Shown piece after piece: positions 657 through 42,905 of a DNA stretch of 64,000 nt (position 1 is its first letter; every line of letters begins with the position of its first letter). The notes under the pieces were generated by a model. That model was not told the origin of the DNA. It was given only the letters and a program-made list of their open reading frames with translations, and did no database searches. The translations under genes were made by a program, and so were the position numbers. Source of the stretch: Muricea muricata (lineage: Eukaryota > Cnidaria > Anthozoa > Malacalcyonacea > Plexauridae); assembly GCA_963855995.1 (NCBI GenBank), contig OY979730.1, positions 9,525,300 through 9,589,299 of the forward strand, in the 5' to 3' direction.

Positions 657-3600
657 CTACCATCTTCGGCTTTTGCACTGGCTTGAGTTCTTATTCATGG
701 TATATATGGAGCTTATGCTAACAAGTATATATGGTCAGCACTTGTTTCCATCTACCAAAGTCCAAACTGACCGTGTCGTCTATTTGGTAGATAGATAGCG
801 TAAATAATTTTAATATGTAGACTATTTTAGTATAATTCGATAATTTTTGCTTATTAATACGTAATTAGACAAATTAGATATTGCCGGAACACCCTTCGGG
901 GACTATTATAATAATAAATGTAATATGTAGTGTGTATCTCTACAAGTGCTGACCATAGTATTATAGAACACGGATCAGATATACAGACCATCAGGCTATA
1001 TGGAATTCTGGGATTAAACAAATATAGAGTAAAAACAAAATGGCGAATCCGGAAAAAGAACAATAAAATAGAATGTGCGTGTTCGTTTAAGACCAGTTTT
1101 CTGAGCCTGAATGTTTCTATGTTGAGTTAAATGTTAGCTCAACATAGTATTATTGAAAGTTATATGTAAAAAATATAAAAAAGAAATAGAAAAAAAGAAA
1201 TCCGTGATTCTTCACATATACTTTCAGAATTCGGCAAACATTAATCTTCGACTCAATCCAAGTAAGGAGCACTTCTTGCGTCATTCTTAGGCTGTTGAGA
1301 AAAACAAAATTATTATTTATCCGGCGTATAAGCTACACCATACAGGCATACTGTCTTTGAAAAAAAAATGGACGGAAAAAAAAATGACACAAATTTACTG
1401 ACATCAACAACAAATAGCAACAGAAGAGAAGCCATATGACCCAACCCTGATCATCTAACAAACCGATGCAAGACCTCCTCATACCAGGTACCCTGTAAAT
1501 GGTCTATACGTATGTACTATTTCTGTATGTAATGTGTTGTTTTTTCATTGGCAAATTTATATAAATAAATAAATAGATAAATAATTGCATGTATCGAGGG
1601 TTTTTACCGTAATTAAGGCCTGACAATTTAAACAATACACAATGAGGCAAGTCGTTTAGCTAGTATATTGTTTGAATTGCATTCCGCATGACTGAAATGT
1701 ACGTACAGTATATATAAATCAGGCCTTAGTTTAGGTTTCCCGCGTTAAAAAAAAAGGGTGGCCATGTTTGGGACCATGCATTTTAGTTCACAAATTATAC
1801 GAATTCTCATTGGACAGGCCTAAGTACAAAAACTTTGCATCAGTGATGAATGGTGATCAATGGTTCCAATTTCACCATCCACATCTACACATCAGGCTTA
1901 ATTTATTGTTTAGCCTGCGTATCAAGCCATAATGATTATCATTTCTGTAAAAGTTCTTATGCTTGTGCAGTTGTGCAGCCATGAGCGTGTGACCAAATAG
2001 GTTTTAATGGTTACCTGGTTAGATTCCTGGTCCACCCGAAGACAAGAATATTATATTGACGTGGAGGTGATGGAGCATAAAATGTGTAATTATCACTTAT
2101 CATTTATCAATGATATATGATGTTATATAACAAGAAAATATCAATACATATAGTGCTGCTAACATTTCCTAAGTTTAATTTAATAACTTTTTTTATAAAT
2201 AGTTCAGCAACGTTTGTTCGATGATGATTTGACGGGTTTAGCCATTCTATGAATGATAAAGAAACTTCAGTCAAAATCTGAAAACGTCAGCTTCAATTTA
2301 TGTAGCATAATTTTGCATGGTTCTTATAAAAGAAATATATGAAACTATTTTGTTTAAGTATTTTCTATCTAATAAGTCATTTGTCTTTATGCAGATAATC
2401 CTTATTGACATTTACCCGTGGGTTTTTTGAAGTCAAATTTAGCTTTGGCGGAAATCATATATACTGGTCAAAGAAGATGCGGGCGTTTGCGGGCTGACTT
2501 TGATTTGAGGGTGAAATTTATAGCACAGTCACAGTAGCACATTGCATGCATTGATACAGTATTTTTTTTATTTGTGATTTTACAAGATTGCATTGTATTT
2601 TGTAAGGCGATATCATAGAATGTGTGATTTCCGTGTATTATCTATTCAAAGCCATGTTGCACATGGATATGTTGGAAATAAATCTGCAACATTTCCTCTG
2701 CAGGTAAAATATATTATATATACCGGTAAAAAACATTAAATGCTACAGAATTTATTTTTATACATGTAGAGTATAAAGCATCAGTGGGTCGTAGATATTA
2801 GTAATGTAGTATTTGAAATGTCATACATGAAATATCCACTCTACATATATGTATCTCCAAGGTTTAAAATCTGTATCTTCAATGATTAGCATATACTAAA
2901 TAAATCAATTGATCCCTATTCAACAACAGGGTGTAGTAGGCTGGATCTGCTATAAGTGTAGTTAGACAGGCTGTCGTGTTAGGCAGAGTTAAAACCTTTG
3001 GCTATCTCTGTGGTCGATGCTGTCTCACTAATATCTTCAGCATAATTCTAATCTTCAAATTTTCCACATTAATGCATGCTCAAGGTGCTAGAATAAAATG
3101 AACATTATTTTAGCAAATGATTAGTGGCCAAAATTGATCTTGGGTGGTATATGACATTGGTATACAATTTTCATTTTTATAATTAATTTTATAAACTAGG
3201 TCCATGGTTTTGAAGTAGATGCAATAAATTCAGTCCAGTTCTCAAATCATACAGGTACATAAATATGGAAACTATAAAATTCAAATATTTATGCATCACG
3301 GGCCGGTTGTATAAAAAAGTAGTTAAAGTTAACTGCAGTTAGCGTTAACTACCCTAGTTAAATCCTTAACCGTAGTTAGTTAACTGCACGACTTAACTGC
3401 GTTGCACAAAACGCAGTTAGTCGGATAGTTAACTAATCACGTAGTTAACTTGCGTTGGGCTCGCGTGGTGCAGTTAACATAAATTAAAATGAATTAAGCC
3501 TTGTTTATTTAACAGTGGCTAACAAATTCGATTCAAATAATTGCAGAAGAATGCGCCTGATCTGTGATAAAAGCAATCGTACTTTTTTTCGTACAAATAC

Positions 3601-4641
3601 AAACATTCACCATTATTGAAGAAAGTACTAATTTGTTGGTTTGTAAATTTCAAATGATTTGTCTGGATCACTGGACGTCACATGTGCTAAATTGTGTAAT
3701 TTGTTTGTCTGACTCGCTGACTGTATCGGGAGTGCCAAGCAGATTTGTGTAAAGATGTTAAAATGTTTATTTTGCAAACATATGCTAATGAAGAAAAGTG
3801 AAGTCAAGACATGTACTGGAAATGGATTACTGGATATTTTGGGACTGGTCATACTGGTCATTGTTTATGGTGGGGGTTACACTGTCACCTATTTAATAAT
3901 TAAAACAAGCAGTTATCAAACTCATGTCATACTCAGTCATAGAAGTGGTGAAATACACGTGTGACAACTTAATGGTATCTTTTTGTAAAGTTTTTGGCTA
4001 TAGGTGGCAGTTTGTTACAGAAACTACTTCAATATTTTAATGGTTTAATCAGCAAGGTTTTAACAAGAGACATTTCTCTTTGGTGCAAACCTCCACCATG
4101 AATAATGACTGGCCCTTACAGAATCACAGGATGAAAAATTAGATTTGCAATACATGTTCAACCCAGTGCCAAAATGCAAATGCTGTGAAAGCAAAACATT
4201 TGCTACAGTGCAAATTTGATTATTTGAAACCCATAAATAAAATGAAAAACCAGATTCACATTAAATTTGCACCTGGGTGCCAAAATGCAAATGCATCAAA
4301 TGTGCACAAATCATTCAAATGTGTGGCAAATTGTCGAAGCAATATCTGTCTAAAAGAAGAATATACGAGTTTATATAAATATATGAAAAATATATGAATT
4401 TCAAATGATCAAATTTGCACTATATAATTGCAAAGTTGTTGCCTTCAATTCTGCAGTATGGATAAATTTATAAATAAACTCAAGTCATTTTCATCATGAA
4501 ACCTAATCTGGGTTAGCCTAGATTAAAACCAACTTGGCTAATGTTGTTAAAGTTTAAATATTTCAATCTGTATGAGTTCATTCACTATTAGTAGAATCAT
4601 ACTAGTATACTATTGCAAATGCTGCAATTTGATTGGTTACT

Positions 4642-4879
4642 CTACTCGCTATCTATTCCTCGATAGATAGCGAGTAGCGAAACAATCATCTTCCTATAGA
4701 GATTTCTTTAAAAAAATTGCCTGAAAATCAAATTTTTTGTTGAATATTCCATGTTTGACCTCTGATTCTACTAAAACAATTAGATTACGAGCTCGAGATT
4801 TGTATGCGGTGATAGTTGATTCGGGCTTTGCCCTCATCAACTATCACCGCATAGAAATCTCGAGCTCGTAATCTAATTG
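4642..4879. repeat. two hairpins nested inside the Harbinger element
   Basis: At 4642-4677 a perfect 15-bp stem (CTACTCGCTATCTAT and its complement) closes a 6-nt loop. At 4777-4879 a longer hairpin has arms of about 45 bp, starting CAATTAGATTACGAGCTCG and containing GCGGTGATAGTTGA, around a small GGGC/GCCC-capped loop. Both look like insertions or foldback ends; neither has coding capacity. Confidence 0.65.
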
Positions 4880-5103
4880 TTAATTAGAAGGTACACTATA
4901 TGTTTCAATATTGTGTTATACACAATAATCAATATTTGTTTGATGGGTTGTCAGATGTAACAAAAATCAATATACAACTCATGTCATATATACTGTATGT
5001 ATTTGTATCATGTCTGAGGTCATATTTTCCCATGTAACCACAGTTGCCAAGCTTACAGGTATTTTTCAAGTTGAATTACTAATTACATGTACACAAATTC
5101 AAA

Positions 5104-5444
5104 ATGTCTGCCCATAAAGCAACTAATCCAAAACAAGGGAAGAAAACCAAAACAAAATTTTAATTCAGTAGAATGCAACCTACTGGTTAATATAGTTGAA
5201 CAAAATTTAGACACATTATGGGGCCAATTTTCGAGCACAATAACAAATGCCTAAAAGCAAAAGTTGTGTGAAACTATTTACTTCCCAGATTAACAGCTAT
5301 GAAAAACGTACACCAATAGAAATACGGGAAAATTGCAAAACATGGCCCAAATTGACAAAAAAAAACAAATTCTGGGGTAATGCAGTCTCAATGGAAAACT
5401 GGTGGACGTCCTGCAGCAAGACCACCAACCACTACCACTGCTAA
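5104..5444 (+). pseudogene. Myb/SANT-like accessory protein of the Harbinger element (broken)
   Basis: An ATG at 5104 opens a Lys-rich start (MSAHKATNPKQGKK) that hits a stop at 5161. A second frame, from about 5156, reads NFNSVECNLLVNIVEQ, then LWGQFSSTITN, and continues across further stops and frame changes to a basic stretch containing KTGGRPAARPP. The F-x-x-x-E-x-x-x-L-V start, the W and the basic tail match the trihelix/Myb-like DNA-binding protein of PIF/Harbinger elements, which helps the transposase bind the ends. At least one frameshift and several stops make it non-functional. Its place inside the element next to the transposase remnant supports the call. Confidence 0.6.
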
Positions 5445-5456
5445 AATTATAAGTCT

Positions 5457-5675
5457 TTAGTGATGAGCCTGGTTTCGCTTTGTTAGTGGTCTCACTTCGC
5501 CGTCGATGAGTCGCGCTATAAAAAGCAAAGATTCTCCGCCAAATCTATAGCGTTTTAGGAGTTCTTTATCTGAGAAATCTTCCCAGGGAAGTTGACGATT
5601 AAAAACTCTAAGTAAGAGTTGCCTTTCAGTATTATCTCGCTCATAAAAGTTGTTCACTCTTAATACAGCCGCCAT
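5457..5675 (-). pseudogene. Harbinger transposase N-terminal remnant
   Basis: A 72-residue open frame beginning MAAVLRVNNFYERDN contains DKELLKRYRFGGESLLFIA, followed by RPLTKRNQAHH and a stop. The pattern of an acidic residue, then ELL-x-RYRF-x-x-E-S and later R-x-LT-x-R is typical of the N-terminal helical region of PIF/Harbinger (HARBI1-like) transposases. The DDE catalytic domain that should follow is absent, because the next sequence in that direction is the Myb-like remnant. It is therefore an internally deleted pseudogene. Confidence 0.7.
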
Positions 5676-5706
5676 ATTTAACTAGGTTTTGAGAAGTTAA
5701 CTATGC

Positions 5707-5933
5707 CACAGAATAGAAATAAACAGAAGGGCCACTCGAGTCGGAACCTTTGAAGTTTGTGTCTCCACGCATTACGCATGCTCATTATGCAGGTTCTGGC
5801 CAGTCAATTGCCTTTTCTGGCCAATAGGAACGCTGAACAGGCCGTTCCGCCATTATTCTGGCCAGTCAATTGCATAAAAATAGGGAGACATGTTGCACTG
5901 CTGAGTGGCCCTTCTGTTTATGTCTATTCTGTG
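5707..5933. repeat. inverted-repeat element nested in the Harbinger copy
   Basis: The left arm starts CACAGAATAGAAATAAACAG and runs to GGGCCACTCG. The right arm is GAGTGGCCC..CTATTCTGTG. The ~30-nt arms enclose about 165 bp holding two copies of TTCTGGCCAGTCAATTGC-like sequence. A small non-autonomous insertion is the simplest reading. Confidence 0.6.
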
Positions 5934-6122
5934 ACTATGCCATTGAGGATAGTTAACTTTAACTACTTTTTAACTACAGTTAACGCTAACTGCCTTTTTG
6001 TACAACCGGCCTAACTACGTAATTAAAGTTAACCACTATTTAACTACTTTTTGGGTAGTTAAAAAGCAGTTAAGAGCTTTATACAACCGGCCCCTGGTAG
6101 CCACTATTGCCATTGTTATCAT

Positions 6123-6395
6123 TTGCTTTTCTTGTTTTCAAATATCTGCCTGTATGTAGGGGAAACAGGTAGATCTCTGAAAACAAGAAAGGCTGAACAC
6201 ATCAGAAACGTTAAGAAACATAATAATGGTTCAAACATCGCGAAACATGCATGGGACAATGATCATGTAATTGATTTCGACAGCACGAAAATCATTGACA
6301 CAGGGAATTTCCGTAGTCGCCTAGCACTAGAATCATGACATACAGCCAAAGGGAGGAATGCCGATAACAACTCAAAACCGCTTCCTCGACAATGT
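6123..6395 (+). pseudogene. Penelope-like element GIY-YIG endonuclease remnant
   Basis: The frame reads CLYVGETGRSLKTRKAEHIR, then SNIAKHAWDNDHVIDF, IIDTGN, RSRLALES, a stop at 6336-6338, and a continuation HTAKGRNADNNSKPLP. The YVGETGRSLKTR-x-x-EH block and the later H-x-x-x-x-H-x-IDF and R-x-x-LES blocks match the GIY-YIG endonuclease at the C-terminus of Penelope-like retroelements, the domain that nicks target DNA. The stop falls where the family normally has Trp (LESW), so this copy is dead. It starts about 30 bp after the Harbinger right end. No reverse transcriptase part is visible. Confidence 0.75.
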
Positions 6396-6958
6396 ACAAT
6401 CTTAATAAAGAAAACATAGTATCACCTTATCGTATTTCACAGTGCACATGTATACACGTCATATCTAGCTTCATTTGACGCTTTCACAGTTTATAAATCA
6501 TAAATGAACCCGTTGAAAGCAACAGACTGGTGGCCAAAAGCTCGTAAACAAATAAATATATTTTAGTCAGAGAACGTCTCACCTTTTTCATTTATGTCTA
6601 ATCCTGGCTACACATCTACGATTTTTAGTGGTTTATATTCTTCAACTATTTTTTAAAGCTAATTCTGTTGAAAACGGGTAAATAATTTAAACCACATAGG
6701 GCGAGTGTAATAGCCAACGCGGTCTGGTGATCAAGCAAAGTGGTGTAAATAAACAACGCAGCTGAACGATAATTCCCTTGTTCGGAATTATTTTTATGTT
6801 TTAGAATCAATTATAGGCTAGAGTAAACCCCGCTTAAACAATTTAAGTGGCAAGGGCGTGATAGCGATCATGTAGTCTAGTTGCCAATGCAAAATGTCTC
6901 AAGTCAACGAGTTTTTGGTCAAATCTTGCCCTTGTCACAAACCCCATAGGCTTTTGTC
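6396..6958. other. non-coding sequence after the Penelope remnant
   Basis: AT-rich sequence that may include the untranslated tail of the Penelope fragment. No conserved frame, RNA gene or inverted repeat was recognised. Confidence 0.4.
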
Positions 6959-7159
6959 TGGGGTAAGAATTATTATAAATATACACGCTAGATTAATTCA
7001 AAGTTATTTGAACCCATTCGCGAGCTTTTGTTCGCATTTCATCGAATAATATTTAATCATACTCTGTCGAGGAAGATCTTGAAGTTGCTTTGAGTGTAAT
7101 TACATTTTTAAATGTATCTACAAATTTATTCCTAAATAAATCCAATTGAGTCTTTTGCA
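6959..7159 (+). repeat. left copy of a 201-bp direct repeat (LTR-like)
   Basis: This copy runs from TGGGGTAAGAATTATT to TTGAGTCTTTTGCA and matches 8633-8834 with only scattered differences. Both copies begin TG and end CA, as LTRs do. No 5-bp target duplication or primer-binding site was seen, so an LTR pair is possible but unproven. Confidence 0.6.
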
Positions 7160-8632
7160 ATATCACAAATAATAAAAATCGATAAGATCACAACTTGAGC
7201 ATACGGTAGGTTTCTGGTGCTACGAATTTTAAAAGCCCATATGTTTGTAAGTAGAACATTTGAAAAATAAATGTGTGTTGAAATCAGCCTTAATTCCCTT
7301 ATACTCGGAGAAGACCTCGAAATTCTGATCAAACATACATTTCCAAATTTAATGACCCAGCTTTAGGCGTTCAATATATATCATTGAACTAAACAGGTCA
7401 CTATTCAAATCTAATGTCGAAGAACAACATTATTGCTGAGGCACTACAGAGACGATAAGTATTAAATAAATGGAAATGTCGTTCACTGATTGCATAAATG
7501 ATCACGCAAATTATATTTTGATGTTTATGATAAAACTTATACACTAATACATGGATGCATGTGCGCATGGCAATAGTGCCTACCCGGTCGTAATTCAACC
7601 ACAATCACTGCAACAGCAGAGCATGAGGTATATATATACAAATCGGTGATACTGTATCTTGATGGTCTGATTCGAAGAAATAGGGTTTTAGCACTTACGG
7701 CCTGGGGGCCGCTTCTACCCTCCCCTATATTTCGAACCGGAGGTGGTGGAGTTATGATACAGACGGTTGAGGGAGTCGATTCGGTGCCGTTGTCGGTTAG
7801 ACACCCGCATTGGGTCACTCGTCGAAGCCAATTGTGCGAAGCCATCCGTGTGGGAAACTTTTATCACAATACCTGGTCCTTTTTACCATCGTTATACCAT
7901 TCCAAGGCTAATCCTTCGAAGGTAGCAGAATTCCTGACACCTTTTGGAACTTTTTAATTTAAATTGATTACGCTGGCGTACAATCTCTTATGACGCTTTT
8001 CAATAGCCCTAATGTAAGTGGTAGAGCGTAATTCTTTTCAATTATTTATTTGGGGTTTTTTCGCCAAAAAAGATGGTTCCCACCGTTAAGAAAAACTCTA
8101 GCATTTTGAGCACGGTTTTTTGTTCAATTTTTTTCGATGATTTTTTAGAACTTTTATTTTCTCCATTTACCAAAAATTTTGCCAGTGCGGTTAACAAGGA
8201 AATAAAATTTTTCTTTATCAGACTGTATGATAAAAAGAAGTTGTCAAATTTTGACGAATTTTTTTCTAAAAAAATTAGCAAAATAGACGAGAAGATACTT
8301 TGGAAAGGGACCAAGGGTTATAATTCTTACACAAGACGAAAACTATTTAATGCATGGCAAGGGTAGGAATTTATCCTACCCACTTTTGTTGAGTAATTTG
8401 TATTTGACCACTGCATTACGTTGGTTATGAGGCTTCGGCAAGTTGGTTTGAGTTGTCTATACGTTCTTCTAGCCAATGCTTAATTCTTAAAACTGACCAA
8501 AGCCAGGACGATTTTTATCAAAGGCAGGTATTGTTCCCGGACTCAGTGATTGACTCTGAAGGGACACACATTGTCTTTACCACCAGACTATGTTAGTTAC
8601 CACTTTCTATGTTAGTTAATTACCACTTTCAC
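7160..8632. other. internal region between the two 201-bp direct repeats
   Basis: About 1.47 kb holding two plus-strand open frames: 7646-7957 (103 codons, less AT-rich than its surroundings) and 8073-8366 (97 codons, Phe/Lys-rich). Neither shows gag, protease, reverse transcriptase or any other domain I recognise. The second also has a long frame on the opposite strand, as expected of low-complexity AT-rich DNA. Coding status is undecided. Confidence 0.35.
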
Positions 8633-8834: not shown

Positions 8835-9000
8835 ATTTAAAGGGTAATCTGCATGAGTAATGTTAAGCAACACGCTGTATGTTCCGTCTTACCAGCAAAA
8901 CATCTTTTCAGTTTCCGCAGAAGTAGAGAATGTCAACTTAGGGCCCCAGGTAAGTATCTACGCCACTGAGGAAGGGAGTTTGAATAAGAACCAATAACGT

Positions 9001-9845
9001 ACATAACACCAATAACACCATAACGTCTATTACACCAATAACGCCATAACGTCTATAACACCAATAGCTCCATAACGTCTATAACACCAATAACGCCATA
9101 ACGTCTGTAACGCCATTACGTCTATAACACCAATAACGTCCATAACACCAATAACGTCCATAACACCAATAACGTCTATAACACCAATAACGCCATAACG
9201 TCTGTAACACCAATAACGTCAATAACGCCATAACGTCTGTAACACCAATAACGTCCATAACACCAATAACGCCGTAACGCTTATAACACCGATAACGGCC
9301 ATAACACCAATAACGCCATAACGTCTGTAACGCCATAACGCCTATAACACCAATAACGTCTATAACACCAATAACGTCTATAACACCAGTAACGTCTATA
9401 ACACCAATAACGCCATAACGTCTGTAACGCCATAACGCCTATAACACCAATAACCTATATAACACCAATAACGCCATAACGTCTGTAACGCCATAACGTC
9501 TATAACACCAATTACGCCATAACGTCTGTAACACCAATAACGTCTATAACACCAATAACGTCCATAACACCAATAACGCCATAACGTCTGTAACACCAAT
9601 AACGTCCATAACACCAATAACGTCCATAACACCAATAACGTCCATAGCACCAATAACGCCATAACGCCTATAACACCAATAACGTCTATAACACCAATAA
9701 CGTCCATAACACCAATAACGTCTTTAACACCAATAACGCCATAACACCAATAACGCCCATAACACCAATAACACCCATAACACCATTAACGCCCATAACA
9801 CCAATAACGCCACAACGTCTATAACACCAATACGTCTATAACACA
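9001..9845. repeat. minisatellite of 9/18-bp AACACCAAT-AACGTCTAT modules
   Basis: About 845 bp built from 9-bp modules AACACCAAT alternating with AACGTCTAT, AACGTCCAT or CGCCATAACGTCTGT variants, giving mainly 18-bp and longer higher-order units. Because most units are multiples of 3 and lack stops on the minus strand, long repetitive Tyr/Trp/Cys/Val/Leu frames appear there (9079-9336 and 9396-9707). They follow from the repeat and are not genes. Confidence 0.9.
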
Positions 9846-10715: not shown

Positions 10716-13700
10716 TCAATATTCTTCTTGCTCTTCTTCCGGCTCCGCCTCGTCGCCAGCTTCTGGTTGCACAAATCCATCCTGATAATGAACACACGAT
10801 TGTAGTTTGAAATTATGCTTTTTGGCAAGCTTAAAACAAGGGACTTAATCTGTTGGGGGGGGGGGTGTTGCAACTTAATACAGGTCAGATTGTTTATTTG
10901 AGACTTTACAGTAACTAACCTCTGTAGCATATAACACCTCTAAAATATTCTTTAAGACTGGGTTTTCTTCTCCGCCAGCATCTTGACATATCACTTCGAT
11001 ATCTCGTAACTTGCCAAAATAGAAATCCCTTTCTTTCTCTAGTCCGTCGACTGTTAGGGAAAGTTCAGCGACCTGATGAATATGAAATACATATTTTATC
11101 CACATTTATATATTCTGGATAGATTTTAACAGCTGCAGACCTTAACTTGAAATTTTGACATTGCAATCCTAAGTCAATCGATTACCATAGACACAGACCT
11201 GTTCGTTAAGTTCCTTTATTTCTTGAGATGCTGCAGCATTTGTTGTGCTAGTCTTTTGCACCGTCGTAGTTTTGACCGTTGTGTTTGCAACACGCGTTGT
11301 ATTAGCAACTACAACAAATGCAAAACAAACATAAACCAAGCTGAACTAAAGTGGAACAATTTTTAACACTTTGGTTTGTAACAAGTTGCAAATTTTTTCC
11401 AAGTATAAACATCTAAGATGGGCATAGGCAAAAAGAGAATAACAAATGTAAACTAATGATTCACAAAGATCATCATTAAGACAGTTCGTACCTGGTTTCC
11501 GGCTTGCAACACTTGTAACACCGGCTATAAAACAATTGAACCATGCAAATATTAACATTAAAAGTGACAGTTATATTCACAAACAGTGGGTGTAATTTGG
11601 TAGCTACAATCAGAGAGATTTTCATGTCATGCATGTGACATTGCTATTTAACGTATCACAAAAACCATGAAAACCAATGGAACTGCCATGTCCTGTGTAC
11701 GACGGGAAACTCACTGATCAGTGATCCATAGGCAATAGCAGGATTTTTAATTTAATACAGACAATTTGAAGATTGAGACTAATACAGATAATTTGAAGAT
11801 TGGTATCGCTTAAAAAAGGAATACCACTGAATGAGCTTTGTCTCAGTGTTGCAATCACCAGATTTTAAATAACTGATGATCTAAGGGCATGGTATGGAGT
11901 TGATGAAAATGTAAGCATTAGTGAGATTTAGGCATGCACTAGTTACCTGGTTTCCGAGTTGAAATCTTGGTTGGTTTAGCTCCGGGGTTAACAGCGACAC
12001 CTCCTCTAGCTGCCAGGGGGTCATATTCAATACCCAAGTCATAATTGGCATCAAAGAATTTCTTAAACCACTGTGCAAACTCAAAATTATCCTGGAACTT
12101 TCCTTTGACTAATTTGTCAATAGGAATCATCTAAAATCAATTGAATCAAGGTGAGTTACATAATAGACATGGTAGTAACCTTGCTCAAAATATGAAACTC
12201 AGAGAATGACATTCCACTTTCATACATAACTATCTAATCATACGTTAAAAAAGCCCATAACATCCACCAGCAAGATACAATTTGTTGTACAGGGTATACT
12301 ATTCGCACAACTACAATAAACGGAGCAATTATAGAATGCCCTGCCAAATAAAAGCTTGCTTCAGTCTTGCTTCAAAACAAGCTTTGTCCCCAGAGGGCTA
12401 TACTTTGATAGGGTTTCTTGAAAGAATGTGACAAACATATAAAATATATAACAAGACTATTTTGCCGCCAACGTTCGGCCAGGTCTCTTGTATTCTATAA
12501 TTATTGCAACAAATAAGCACTAGATCTCAAATTTTACCATAAGCAAATTGAAAAAAAAATAGACCATGGCATTTGTTTTTTATAGCAGAATGCAAATTGT
12601 ACAAGACAAATTGTACCATGTAGAGAAGCCTATATGAAAGTACCTTATCGACTGATGCTTTTTTAAAAGCTGTCTGAAGTAGTTTCCAATTCTGAATATA
12701 TTCATGTTCCAAGTTAGTGTTGAATTTTACTCTTTTCAAAGGCATACAATCTAAACAAAAATAAAAGCATCGGGAAAACTATTACTGCAACGACTCATTT
12801 CAGACGAGGCTACTTCAGGTGGACCCACACTTTGCACCTGTTTTGGGGCAAGGGACAATCAAGTTATGTGGCTAACCTACGATCACCCAACGAAAACCCA
12901 GAAATCTGTGTTTTTTAAATGTTTTTGTTTCGATTGTTGAAATTTTAGCCTACCAATGATGCATATTTATTTGTACATGTACTGCTCTGTAAATATGTTA
13001 TATCTACACTTATTCGACGGTGCAAAAATTTGAAATTGTTGTTAAGTGGGGGCATTTGCTCCCTTTTTTGCCACCATGTGTAATTTCTAGAAAGTGGCAA
13101 CATCTATAAAATATGTATGCATAAAAAATTTCAAATACATAATTCATAATCTTTGTTCTTTTGTTGCACTTGTACATTGTGTAATCCATTTCTATTATAT
13201 AAAGTACAGTGCTTTATAAGGATTCTGGGCACTGATAAAACTGATAATTTCACATGTGAGATTACTTATGATAATTTCACATGTGAAAATTATCGCTTTT
13301 CAAACAATCACCAATCATAGCTTCTGGACATTTTATATTGGTAAAACCTGTAGTTTATATAGTAAACAGAAAAATATATGGGTGCTTGGAAAATGGAAAT
13401 ACCAGATTTGTTTCTCGTGTTGAACATGGTATCATGTTCAACACTCGAAATAAATCTGGTATTTCCACGCACCCATGTATTATTCTCCATGTACCTCATC
13501 AATTCTAATACAGGTCAATGTTAGTCCTGTTATTCCTTCCAACATAATATGCTTTGAAGCACTTGGGATGGGAGTGCTTAAGATTTTTTAAAAATAATCA
13601 GTCATGAGTGAAATTTTAATATTGCCACAAATGAACATCGTCTACAAATGAAAATACCACAATATAGACTACGGTTTAATACTAATTGTGATACTGGTTT

Positions 13701-14290
13701 CAAGCTTTAACAATACAATACATTAATTACTTGAAAAGTTCCTTTATATTGAAGATAAAAAATGTGTTCAATCATGGAAAATTTATAGGGAGGACTGCAC
13801 TTTATCAAAGAGGCTGATTATCTGTCATGCCAATGGCTTAGATTTATTTCCAAACTCAGACAGACCAGGTATATTGATAACTGTTACAGACACTTGGCGA
13901 ATATCGTGTGGTTTTGTATAATAAATACACATTAACTTTTGTACTCAAAAATAAAACAAAATTCACACAATCTTCATTGCCTCAAAGTGTCAGATATTAC
14001 ACCCAAACGTACTCGCAAATAGCATGTCCATAAACTGACAATACGCCGCTCCTGTAAAAGAAATGCAAAGAAAATATATATTAAATTATTTAAACCCAAG
14101 GTTGACGTAGTTTTTCAAGGTGTAAAAATCTATGTGACAAATTTATTAAGCAGACGAATTAACACATACCTGAACATAGTTGCTCTATTTTCGTGTAGTT
14201 CACTTGAAGTTGTGTATTTACCCATCCGAGCATGTCATGACGGCTCAAATTATCAGACGTACACGAAGTTAAATGGACGTTAACAGCCAT
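10716..14290 (-). CDS. MAPRE: EB1/MAPRE microtubule plus-end tracking protein
   Basis: EB1 proteins bind growing microtubule plus ends and recruit partners that carry SxIP or CAP-Gly motifs. Coding exons on the minus strand: 14290-14170, 14051-14013, 12750-12644, 12130-11947, 11524-11492, 11308-11199, 11072-10920 and 10781-10716. All have GT..AG borders, and the joined frame is 270 residues, the usual EB1 length. The start MAVNV, then [11 protein letters not shown], begins the calponin-homology domain, which continues through LEHEYIQNW and [12 protein letters not shown] Ser/Thr-rich basic linker follows, then the coiled-coil EB homology domain ([23 protein letters not shown]) and the acidic tail ending EEQEEY. 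That final EEY is the motif recognised by CAP-Gly domains. Exon 5 is a 33-nt frame-preserving microexon in the linker. The gene faces away from GALE across 3.9 kb. Which vertebrate paralog it matches best was not tested. Confidence 0.96.
13377..13478. repeat. hairpin element in MAPRE intron 2
   Basis: Arms of about 45 nt (left containing ACCAGATTTGTTTCTCGTGT and TTGAACATG, right its complement CATGTTCAACACTCG..AAATCTGGT) meet almost without a loop. A small foldback insertion; no coding potential. Confidence 0.6.
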
Positions 14291-14486
14291 AATAAACTTC
14301 GAAAACTTTACTTCTGTTTCGCCAGCCAAAAAGGTCGGAGTTGGTCGGAGAAGATGCAATTAATTATTCAAATTTATGCTGATTATTAAAAAATTATGCT
14401 ATGGGATTTCCGGAAAGTTTACGCCTTTAGCTTTTTTGCATTAATTAGCCCGCACCTCCTGCAACTGGATTTATACAATCTGGAGA

Positions 14487-15003
14487 TAATATCATAGACA
14501 ATCTAAGGAATGGACTGGAAACGCAAGCTAAAGTTTACGCGACATCCGTGATACGCTTTACTTTGGAACCCTGTAACTTCCCTTTAAATACATTTCAGGA
14601 CTTCGTATTTACATATTTTAAACAAGAACAGAAATGTGAATGGAACTATCGACTTTTAAAACTTCCCAGAGAGATAAACGAGGCGGAAAATCACCATTTA
14701 ATGTTTCCGTAAACCTTTTTCAACAACAACAATGGCGACATTTCTGCAGTCAAAAAGAATGCAAACATTCAGCGTTGGGTTTTAGCTTTGTTATATCCAT
14801 AAAGAATTTTAAAAGTCGATAGTTCCATAGAGATTGCCGTTCTTGTTTAAAATATGTAAATAGAAAGTCCTGAAGTATATTTAAAGTGAAGTTACAGGGT
14901 TCCAAAGTATAGCATATCAGGCCGTATCACGGATGTCGCGTCAGCAACATTGATACTTTAGCTTGCGTTTCCAGTCCATTCTGTTGATTGTCTATGGTAA
15001 TAT
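14487..15003. mobile_element. non-autonomous element with long terminal inverted repeats, upstream of MAPRE
   Basis: The left arm includes AATGGACTGGAAACGCAAGC, GCGACATCCGTGATACG and AGGACTTCGTATTTACATA. The right arm repeats these inverted, with TTTCCAGTCCATTCTG near 14985. Arms exceed 150 bp and the inner pair CTATCGACTTTTAAAAC closes the palindrome. The 60-codon frame at 14640-14822 lies wholly inside and looks non-genic. It starts about 200 bp upstream of the MAPRE start codon, so it may sit in the promoter or 5' UTR. Confidence 0.7.
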
Positions 15004-15044
15004 ACAATGGACTGTATCATTGCCATAGTGTCAAAAAAGAGATG

Positions 15045-15345
15045 AAGTGGATTTTTTTGAAATTTATCACCTCAGTGTTTACCATTCTGCCACGCCCTGT
15101 TGGCGGGCGGAGTAATGAGCTGTGTATGGAGCATTGTTGCCGTTTGCGATTCTAGTCTGTGTTTCTACTTCTGACATATGTGAACAAGTAGATTCTTCAC
15201 CGAAACGCTTGTAACCATTGACATAAATACATCAATGTATTATGTATATATGTCAATTCTTGTAACTGGTTCACTCGTTCACCTCCATCAAATTGATCAA
15301 AGGCAGAACAACACAGTTGAAATTTTTAGGGGAAAAGAACACGAC
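15045..15345. repeat. interspersed repeat family R1, copy 1
   Basis: Shares CCACGCCC, GGCGGGCGGAGTAATGAG, GCATTGTTGCCGTTTGCGAT, CTACTTCTGACATATGTGAA and TCACCTCCATCAAA with 19205-19500 and, more diverged, 22430-22712, in the same orientation. This copy carries an extra segment near 15220-15260. No coding domain is recognisable. Confidence 0.7.
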
Positions 15346-15388
15346 GAATACGACTACAAAGTGGTAACCTTCTCATTTCTTAACCTTA

Positions 15389-15799
15389 GGGACCGTTCAT
15401 TATTTATTAGAAGGAGGGGGATGGGTGATTTTTAGATTGACACAACTTAAAATTTCAGGTCCCCACATTGGTTAGCAACATATTCCAACCCCCCTCCCCC
15501 TCGAAGATTAATTGATAATTTTTGTGAATAGAAAGTACCTTAAATAATAGAAAGTATTTAAAAAAGGCATTTCTCGACGAGGCAGCTACTCCGCTACTCC
15601 AAGCTGTTGTCACAGCTAGAGATGTGAACAAGCACGAAGGCAACAGTGAAGCATTTTGTGGTCAATATAGTCACAATGATTAAGGTCGCCTTCCATATTC
15701 ATGTTTGAACGGATTGACCCCCCCACTTCTTTCTGAAAATTTCAGATCCCCCCATTTTATCACCCATCCCCTCCCCTCCTATATATAATGAACGGTCCC
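15389..15799. mobile_element. MITE with GGGACCGTTCATTAT ends and TTA target duplication
   Basis: The left end is GGGACCGTTCATTATTTATT followed by a G-rich GGAGGGGGATGGGTGA block. The right end is the inverted equivalent (TCACCCATCCCC, AATGAACGGTCCC). TTA flanks both sides (15386-15388 and 15800-15802), consistent with a 3-bp TWA duplication of PIF/Harbinger type. It is 411 bp with no transposase. Confidence 0.75.
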
Positions 15800-15961
15800 T
15801 TATTTCAAGAAATAAACTCGTCCCACTGTCTTATATTCAACATTCATATAATATCACATAGACAAATATCCAGTTTTGAATCATATAAAATAGAGTGCTC
15901 AATACCGAAGTAGAGCGTGTAGAGAAGAAGAAAAGACAAACTTGAATTACTTCATAAATTT

Positions 15962-16021
15962 TATTCACTACAATATTGTTTCGTATGGCAAGCGAGTCTT
16001 GCCACATTCGTCAGGTGAATA
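15962..16021 (-). ncRNA. type I hammerhead ribozyme, Penelope-type
   Basis: Read on the minus strand from 16021 the elements occur in order: stem I 5' strand UAUUCAC, core CUGACGA (fits CUGANGA), stem II with a 9-bp helix (UGUGGCAAG against CUUGCCAUA, one G-U) around loop ACUCG, core GAAA, a self-complementary stem III ACAAUAUUGU, cleavage triplet GUA, then stem I 3' strand GUGAAUA. Stem I pairs perfectly over 7 bp. The only flaw seen is an A-C at the first stem II pair. The near-loopless palindromic stem III suggests the dimer-type hammerheads known from Penelope-like elements. No Penelope coding sequence adjoins it, so it is probably a short 3' relic. Confidence 0.8.
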
Positions 16022-16928
16022 TCGCGTTTGTTGTATAAATTATTGTAACACATATGTAATTATTCCTCCAGCATCTATTGAAGATCAGTTACTGGGGGAA
16101 ACTGAACCGAGTGTAAAAAGAGCGGGAAAATCGTTTCAAAATGGCCCCACTGAATGGCCCACTCAAAGTGGAATGTTTGTTCACTTTTTTGGTAACATTT
16201 TTCGAATTTTTTGTATTTCAATTATTCTGCCCGATATCAAAATGTTATTTTGTACGTATCTACATTACAGGTAATCGTTATATATGTAATTATTTGTTCT
16301 AGTTTACATTTTTACATAGGGCGTAAACTTTTGTATCTTGGATGAGTATTAGCATTCACAGCGAAAGAATACATATAAACGTAGATAAATAAGAAATTTA
16401 CGACCAAAAAATCTACCCACCGTGGACGGTAGCTTTGCAAAATGCGTGTAAAATTTGTCAAAAATGCAAAAATAAAAGTACGCTTTTTAACCGGATGTAA
16501 GTTGCCCAACCTCACTTCCGGTCGTTTCCCCCGTACCGACACGTCGACAGGCCTAGTTTTTCCTTGGTGATACAATCATGTGATTTTAATTGGAATCTTT
16601 GATGTTTTGCACTCAAATGTAAGTTTATTTCACTGCTATTAGTTTGTCGTTTTTAGTAAAGTTTATACTGTATTGTATTATACTGACTTCCTGAGTAGTC
16701 TTAAGCCTATATAGTAGTCTTAAGCCAGTACATCTATATATTAATATATAGATGTACTGAATTGATTGTTTTGATTCGAATGTACCGAACGAAAGACCAC
16801 AAAAGCGACTTTTAGTTTGATAATCAAGTCAACAATAGAACGTTGTGGGGTTTTTTTTAAACAAAGTGTAATTTTCATCCATGATTAGTCGTGGAGTAAC
16901 AATTAAATAATTATATATAAGAGAAGGT

Positions 16929-17299
16929 CAGGGTTGGCAAATGTTCTTATATTAGTTGTTCTTATATGTTCTTATATTATATAAGAAAAATTTTTGTGGA
17001 GGCAAAAATGTTCTTATATTTTCTTATATTATTTTCATTAATTATTTTACTTCAAGGTTGTAAATCTCTACTATTTGACAATCATCTTTAAATAAGATAT
17101 ACAAATAATAGTCATGTAAATACTGCAGTAATAACTATTTAACCATTATACCTAATGCAACCAGCTTGTAGAGTTTTTATTTTCGATGGCAAGATTTTTG
17201 AAAATGTTCTTATATTACAAAAAATGTTCCTATAGAAAATAGTTCCTATAAGAAATAAGAAAATTATATTTTTGAAAAATGTTCTTATATCCAACCCTG
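16929..17299. mobile_element. hAT-like MITE with 8-bp target duplication
   Basis: Ends are CAGGGTTGG and CCAACCCTG, flanked by identical 8-bp copies GAGAAGGT (16921-16928 and 17300-17307). The interior is rich in ATGTTCTTATAT motifs in both orientations. CAG-type termini with an 8-bp duplication are the signature of the hAT superfamily. At 371 bp with no transposase it is a non-autonomous copy. Confidence 0.85.
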
Positions 17300-18219: not shown

Positions 18220-27132
<8,913 letters not shown>

Positions 27133-31122: not shown

Positions 31123-38534
<7,412 letters not shown>

Positions 38535-41757: not shown

Positions 41758-42136
41758 ACCATTCCCCAATTAGACAAACTTTTAAATTTGAAAACAATTT
41801 TAGCACAATTGGAAAGAGCTTCCTAAATTTAGAGAAATTGTGAAGTTTGGTTTTAAAATACTGAAAAATGTTGAAAATATAGTGAAGTAAAGTTTGCGAA
41901 TTTTGTATACTTCTGTATTACGCGGGAAAAAGCTTTACCACATTTCCACAGAGTGGTAACGCTTTTCCGTGCGTAATACAAAAGTATACAAAATTCGCAA
42001 ACTTTACAGGGCTATATTTTCCTCATTTTACAATATTTTACAACCAAACTTGACAATTGTATGAAATTTAGGATGCTCTTTCCAGCTGTGCTAATTGATT
42101 TCCCGAATTCAAAAGTTTATGTAATAGGGGAATGGT
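41758..42136. mobile_element. MITE family F copy 2
   Basis: Ends ACCATTCCCCAATTAGACAA and GTAATAGGGGAATGGT. Inside, AATTTTGTATACTTCTGTAT and its inverse form a long hairpin. It matches 23588-24284 without that copy's nested palindrome, so it approximates the uninterrupted element (379 bp). Confidence 0.75.
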
Positions 42137-42626
42137 CCATTGTGTGTTTCTCTCTCTCTCTTTGACTTTGTCGAATCCCTACTCTCCATAAGAACCACAA
42201 GCATAGAACTAAGTACAAGAGCATAACCTATGTTAGAACAAAAACACATTCAAAAGAAAGTGTACGTACTTTCTGCTTTGTCTTAACAAAGCTATCCTTT
42301 GTTAAGCCTGGTTTCCATTCCATTTCCATCCAAAGTCATTCTTGACGATATGATATAGTCTAGATCTGTCTTTTCTTTCGTGGTCTGTATTCAAATTAGT
42401 TAAATTAAGTGCAGATCAGCGTACATACTCTATGCACATCGGTCACTTTGATATATTCACCTCATCAGCCACAACTAAATGGAATCTAGGCTGAAATTAT
42501 GGCTTATCCTTACGTCGCCAGTGAGGGATAGGCTTAGTAACAATGATTGAATATTAAATCATATCTTGAATATTTTCAGCACCAGGTGATGACAATCACA
42601 CACAAAAGTTCAAGGAGTGCATGTTA

Positions 42627-42804
42627 TACAAAATAAAACAAATTCCGAAAATAGACATCTTGTATTCCTTATATTTAAGAAAGAACAAGAAAACGACGGA
42701 GTCTGTGATATTTCGTCTTTATTCCAAAGACATTGTCATACCTTGTTCTTTCTTGAATATCAGGAATGCAAGATGTCTATTTTCGGCATTTGTTTCATTT
42801 TGTA
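42627..42804. repeat. 178-bp inverted-repeat element
   Basis: The left arm starts TACAAAATAAAACAAATTCC and includes GAAAATAGACATCTTGTATT and AAGAAAGAACAAG. The right arm is the inverse, CTTGTTCTTTCTTG..CAAGATGTCTATTTTCGG. Arms of ~60 bp, ~55-bp loop. The two overlapping ~95-codon frames here follow from the palindrome. Confidence 0.7.
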
Positions 42805-42905
42805 TTTCCTTAAGTTGTCTGCTTGTCGTAGTTTCCAGTGTGTGTTATGTAACCCTACTCGATTACGTCATACAGACGTTACAGCATCATATACAATCTG
42901 ACCTG

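Follow-up and report, generated by a model that had tools for sequence, protein, structure and literature searches.

Two decayed minimal type I hammerhead ribozyme motifs, probably left by a Penelope-like element, in the genome of Muricea muricata

The stretch of Muricea muricata DNA analyzed here, 64,000 nucleotides of contig OY979730.1 that we call the window, carries on its minus strand, at 15962..16021, a segment laid out like a type I hammerhead ribozyme, and the question that this segment raises is whether it is an intact, solitary ribozyme or a decayed leftover of a mobile element. According to passages of PMC7761336, thousands of minimal type I hammerheads occur in many metazoan genomes, either dispersed or within the pseudo-LTRs of Penelope elements, and in PMC7229834 one coral is credited with over 6000 type I motifs, of which 1508 are canonical. 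The evidence for the segment itself comes from reading of the sequence, a descriptor search, a homodimer fold, and homology to a second copy in the window.

Read directly on the minus strand from 16021 to 15962, this segment, copy A, is UAUUCAC CUGACGA AUGUGGCAAG ACUCG CUUGCCAUAC GAA ACAAUAUUGU A GUGAAUA, which follows the type I hammerhead order of stem I, CUGANGA, stem II, GAA, stem III to U16.1, A17, and stem I. Upon re-reading the minus strand, we found all of the letters and coordinates given for copy A in the original prediction to be correct. Stem I consists of seven Watson-Crick pairs between 16021-16015 (UAUUCAC) and 15968-15962 (GUGAAUA), the core CUGACGA lies at 16014-16008, and GAA lies at 15982-15980. 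The arms of stem II (16007-15998 and 15992-15983), joined by the loop ACUCG, begin with a mismatch that is followed by nine pairs, one of which is G-U. The 10 nt of stem III, ACAAUAUUGU at 15979-15970, form a perfect palindrome, and A17 of the GUA triplet follows it at 15969, after which cleavage is predicted to occur. Throughout, the hammerhead position numbers (10.1, 11.1, 17, etc.) are those that we take to apply to copy A. The mismatch, A10.1-C11.1, bears out the A-C pair that had been noted at the base of stem II; the accompanying description of copy A as apparently intact is too strong, since the pair that is lost is a conserved one. In passages of PMC3088659, only 15.1-16.1 is set above 10.1-11.1 in conservation, and U-U is named as the mismatch best tolerated there; compensatory changes at this pair are reported in PMC2837043. 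Given this high degree of conservation and the preference for U-U, the A-C mismatch probably weakens copy A.

Comparison of the window to itself reveals a second hammerhead, copy B, on the same strand as copy A at about 35971-35906 (80% identity over 102 nt, E 2e-17), which is identified by its homology to copy A, its folding, and its alignment. Copy A had been read as perhaps a solo motif or a 3' relic, and that reading overlooked the second copy (35970-35906, minus strand). Copy B has the core CUGAUGA at 35962-35956, a 10-bp stem II in which G10.1 and C11.1 are paired, and, after GAA, the 10-nt stem III palindrome ACAAAUUUGU at 35926-35917, followed by A17 at 35916. Its stem I is damaged: the 3' arm, CGGAAUU, leaves pairs 1.1 and 1.2, the two next to the core, mismatched. 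Both copies possess CUGANGA, GAA, and A15.1-U16.1 with H at position 17 in type I order, and each carries a different defect, copy A lacking the 10.1-11.1 pair and copy B lacking pairs 1.1 and 1.2 of stem I. The homology between them begins at stem I and ends approximately 37 nt past stem I (at about 15925 in copy A), so that it takes in a 3' tail at 15925..15961 in copy A and its homolog at 35867..35905 in copy B, both on the minus strand; the tail of copy B ends up in a brief run of TA.

A mosaic of direct and inverted half-copies lies immediately upstream of copy B at 35988-36058, adjacent to a TA repeat of 189 bp. On the minus strand, 35988..36025 holds pieces of the 5' half of the hammerhead, with a 25-nt exact match at 36025-36001 and a 13-nt match at 36000-35988. 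An inverted partial copy of the 3' half lies on the plus strand at 36028..36058, with exact matches at 36028-36036 and 36038-36050 and an extension to 36058 by eye; it spans the stem II 3' arm, the palindrome, the cut site, and the stem I 3' arm, and has an A in place of the first G of the GAA core. These partial copies would fit a rearranged Penelope pseudo-LTR, and the mosaic perhaps originated by template switching during insertion.

A covariance model built from copies A and B yielded seven matches in the window up to an E value of 10. Copies A and B are found by construction, and none of the seven is another convincing copy. One match, at 36011-36097, takes in the inverted piece, and its bias of 11.5 probably arises from the TA repeats; four others, with E values of 0.11, 0.54, 1.7, and 4.8, were treated as chance. 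At 4700-4770, a segment weakly resembles the hammerhead unit in its 3' tail alone (E 0.11). The pattern from stem II to stem III had no match in viral and prokaryotic contig collections, as would be expected of such collections.

The window also contains other repeats. Self-reverse-complement stretches of the MITE or hairpin type, with 74-92% identity, lie at 14486-15003, 41758-42136, 23952-24129, 42626-42805, and 4775-4881, and a dispersed repeat is present in three copies that are about 75-90% identical and spaced by 3.2-4.2 kb (15078-15345, 19279-19503, and 22510-22714). A tandem array of approximately 96 units of the 9-bp sequence CCAATAACG, with a higher period of 44, spans 8990-9844, and a 63-bp tandem repeat at 26427-26605 (2.8 copies, 98% matches) is probably recent.

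The differences between copies A and B bear on how their helices pair. In the alignment of the two copies, 2 of the 22 named pairs are changed on both sides and still paired. One is the outermost pair of stem I, and the other is the pair at the center of stem III, which is U-A in copy A and A-U in copy B, so that stem III is fully paired in both. The central pair of the palindrome could not form within a single hairpin, and its compensation therefore points to pairing between copies. Paired cells make up 93% of the alignment, and this value falls to 31-54% when the partners are slid by 1-3 columns. In the covariation shuffle control, 119 of 500 shuffles equaled or exceeded the observed value; with two sequences this control is weak, and the covariation is therefore supportive only.

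Computed folds are consistent with pairing between copies. The fold of the copy A monomer has a z score of -4.2, with none of 200 shuffles as stable; in its minimum-energy structure stems I and II form, part of the core pairs elsewhere, and there is no stem III. The copy A homodimer has a minimum of -42.8 kcal/mol, compared to 2 x -16.3 kcal/mol for the monomers. In its computed structure the two stems I are intermolecular, stem III runs over 10 bp, and each stem II is formed. In this minimum, two extra pairs per core tie up conserved bases, and the pure hammerhead fold, at -42.6, is 0.2 kcal/mol worse. In the copy B homodimer minimum, at -37.2, the hammerhead helices form, each stem I is 5 bp long, and the extra core pairs are absent. 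In the computed homodimers of both copies, the palindromic stem III is paired over 10 bp between the two molecules. Homodimers as stable were obtained from 0 of 300 shuffles for copy A and 6 of 300 for copy B, and the energy gained on dimerizing is not unusual, being matched by 65 of 300 and 46 of 300 shuffles, respectively. The original prediction had proposed a dimer-type stem III, with a dimer fold as a check on it, and this stem III is supported by the two-core arrangement of the homodimer and by the compensated central palindrome pair between the copies. By these calculations, a dimeric hammerhead fold is permitted and favorable, which is no proof of activity.

We looked for traces of the proteins that a Penelope-like element would carry. 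A GIY-YIG endonuclease-like ORF fragment lies at 32407..32799 on the minus strand, 3.1 kb downstream of copy B and on the same strand; its Pfam match (E 3.3e-4, 21.3 bits) is below the 22.6-bit cut-off, and its motif is one that we take to look like that of a Penelope-type endonuclease. A second, more decayed endonuclease fragment at 6153..6386 on the plus strand, 1.4 kb downstream of the tail-like segment at 4700-4770, was identified by tblastn to the first (34% over 79 aa, E 4e-11), and the ORF at 6066-6338 matches Pfam GIY_YIG_2 with an E value of 0.068, below the cut-off. Judged by their sequences, both fragments are probable relics of a Penelope-like element endonuclease. The endonuclease fragment had no relative in the viral contig collection, and among solved structures none was related, the four matches being weak ones to ephrin receptors. 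The relic closest to copy A is 9.6 kb away on the opposite strand, and the one on its own strand is 16.4 kb away. In keeping with the earlier observation that no Penelope protein adjoins copy A, a Pfam search of six read-through frames of 12000-17000 found neither a reverse transcriptase nor a GIY-YIG domain, although such a scan is weak for decayed domains. Read-through Pfam scans, equally weak in this respect, found no reverse transcriptase on the minus strand at 1-31000 and 32300-36300 or on the plus strand at 2500-7500 and 12000-17000, and none was found in nine single ORFs between copy B and the endonuclease relic, where two weak matches were unrelated. The read-through approach overlooked the two GIY-YIG relics as well as the 5' exons of an EB1-family gene, and so leaves room for a decayed reverse transcriptase.

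We consider that copies A and B are probably decayed minimal type I hammerheads of a Penelope-like element; each being worn in its own way, they look like an ordinary transposon leftover. Like the two copies, the minimal hammerheads of Penelope elements (Cervera and de la Pena 2014; Lunse, Weinberg and Breaker 2017, as presented in PMC7761336 and PMC10085705) are described as type I motifs with a plain, short stem I and almost no stem III loop that are expected to act as dimers, and several copies or pieces are described as lying close together, as they do at copy B; the endonuclease relics in the window are a further likeness. In contrast to these, copy A is mismatched (A-C) at 10.1-11.1 and adjoins no element, stem I of copy B is mismatched, and no reverse transcriptase was found. 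A figure legend in PMC3088659 depicts repeat-type hammerheads of Aedes aegypti in which stem III and loop III form a palindrome that makes 10 bp in the dimer, as is computed here. In Poseidon of Anolis carolinensis, as described in PMC11167929, the Penelope-like element encodes a GIY-YIG endonuclease and has a hammerhead at its pseudo-LTR; the Poseidon ribozyme overlaps the ORF start and cuts only when the element's protein is present, whereas we saw no such ORF start here. The same account finds the Anolis hammerhead to be dispensable for insertion in vitro.

If A and B descend from a functional ancestor in a Penelope-like element, transcripts bearing two copies, either in tandem or on two molecules, would have paired their palindromic stem III sequences into a 10-bp helix. 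This helix would have built two complete cores, each with its stem I between copies, and each core would have cut after A17 of the GUA triplet to leave 2',3'-cyclic phosphate and 5'-OH ends. From the features of the two copies, we infer both the past activity of this ancestor and its Penelope origin. Each copy alone would now be weak or inactive, copy A from loss of the 10.1-11.1 pair and copy B from loss of its stem I pairs.

The copies could instead be remnants of a metazoan non-LTR retrozyme, perhaps one mobilized by a Penelope-like element, rather than of a Penelope element itself, and we regard this as unlikely. An internal loop is expected in stem I of canonical retrozyme hammerheads. 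Retrozymes are short tandem units of approximately 170-400 nt that propagate through circular RNAs cut by their ribozymes. As described in PMC7229834, those of animals, cnidarians included, carry type I hammerheads in a non-coding repeat, as is seen here. The unit common to A and B is only approximately 100 bp, and copy A is isolated, without any protein domain seen in its neighborhood, both of which would suit a retrozyme. However, a search for another complete hammerhead found none within 200-400 bp of copy A, and a tandem unit of approximately 170-400 bp was rejected because none lies at that distance from either copy. Canonical retrozyme hammerheads are described as having contacts between loop 1 and loop 2, whereas stem I here is a plain helix with no obvious loop, and passages of PMC7761336 assign the minimal architecture with little stem III to the Penelope variant.

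Host use of copy A is far less probable than a retrozyme origin. Pieces of an EB1-family gene lie on the minus strand at 14290-14144, 14082-13978, 12739-12608, 12130-11981, and 11081-10908, the upstream exons having been recovered by tblastn, and its first coding exon appears to start at 14290. Copy A lies on the sense strand of this gene, approximately 1.7 kb upstream of the apparent start codon, and its stem I is perfect and its core letters are all present, as might be expected if it had been retained as a working ribozyme that cuts the gene's primary transcript. However, its most conserved stem II pair is A-C, and copy B, which lies between two LONRF-like exons (38570-37026 and 31746-31123, minus strand) on their strand, is decayed too. 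Moreover, both copies would be sense to a nearby gene by accident in one case in four. The window also contains a gene for a Src-type SH3-SH2-kinase on the plus strand.

We give still less credence to the idea that the broken copies A and B complement one another in trans, such that dispersed hammerheads are collectively active and cut EB1-like or LONRF-like host transcripts. A heterodimer of the ribozyme half of copy B, where G10.1-C11.1 is intact, and the substrate half of copy A, where the stem I 3' arm is undamaged, can form one core with all conserved features and a 6-bp stem I; as the favored A/B fold it was rejected, given that the hammerhead fold is at -32.7 kcal/mol and the best alternative is at -36.8 kcal/mol.

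There remains chance, in which AT-rich sequence merely happens to resemble a hammerhead descriptor. A descriptor scan of both strands of the window returned four matches, and copy A alone has no core mismatch; each of the other three deviates from the core at one position and has a stem II of 6 bp and a stem III of 1-3 bp. Copy B is absent from these matches because the descriptor requires stem I to start at the core with 4 or more pairs in an unbroken run, whereas in copy B the pairs nearest the core are lost. As a random control, we scanned both strands of 50 Mb generated by a first-order Markov model with the dinucleotide make-up of the window. A setting weaker than copy A (at least 7 bp in stem II, 6 bp in stem I, and 2 bp in stem III) gave one match in 50 Mb, or one per 781 windows, which argues against chance, and two looser settings gave 2 and 46 matches in the same random sequence, the latter showing that loose settings do match by chance. 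The Rfam results can also be read in favor of chance. At the gathering threshold, no Rfam family matched anywhere in the window, hammerhead included; at E values up to 10, the region around copy A (15800-16200) gave two matches, neither of them a hammerhead, and near copy B the hammerhead family was not listed. Formally, this sub-threshold outcome counts against the original prediction, which had proposed the Rfam covariance model as a check, and it is hard to weigh without a known Penelope hammerhead as a positive control. The Rfam threshold is an operational criterion and not the definition of the hammerhead motif, and the miss may be explained if A and B are minimal variants lacking helix III or loop-loop contacts, as the Penelope class is described in PMC7761336 and PMC6155905. 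Chance resemblance is nearly excluded, and a stronger argument against it than rarity in random sequence is the homologous copy B, in which the core, stem II, and stem III are all retained at a distance of 20 kb from copy A.

The locus is new, and the hammerhead, real and differently worn in its two copies, is of an ordinary kind that has already been published. With it, a class that has thousands of members reported in animal genomes, as presented in PMC7761336, gains two more minimal hammerheads of the dimer type. Its value is modest and lies in two diverged copies with a compensatory change at the center of the palindrome, one that is needed only by a stem III formed between copies. Furthermore, since Rfam misses both copies, annotation based on Rfam may undercount minimal dimer-type hammerheads.
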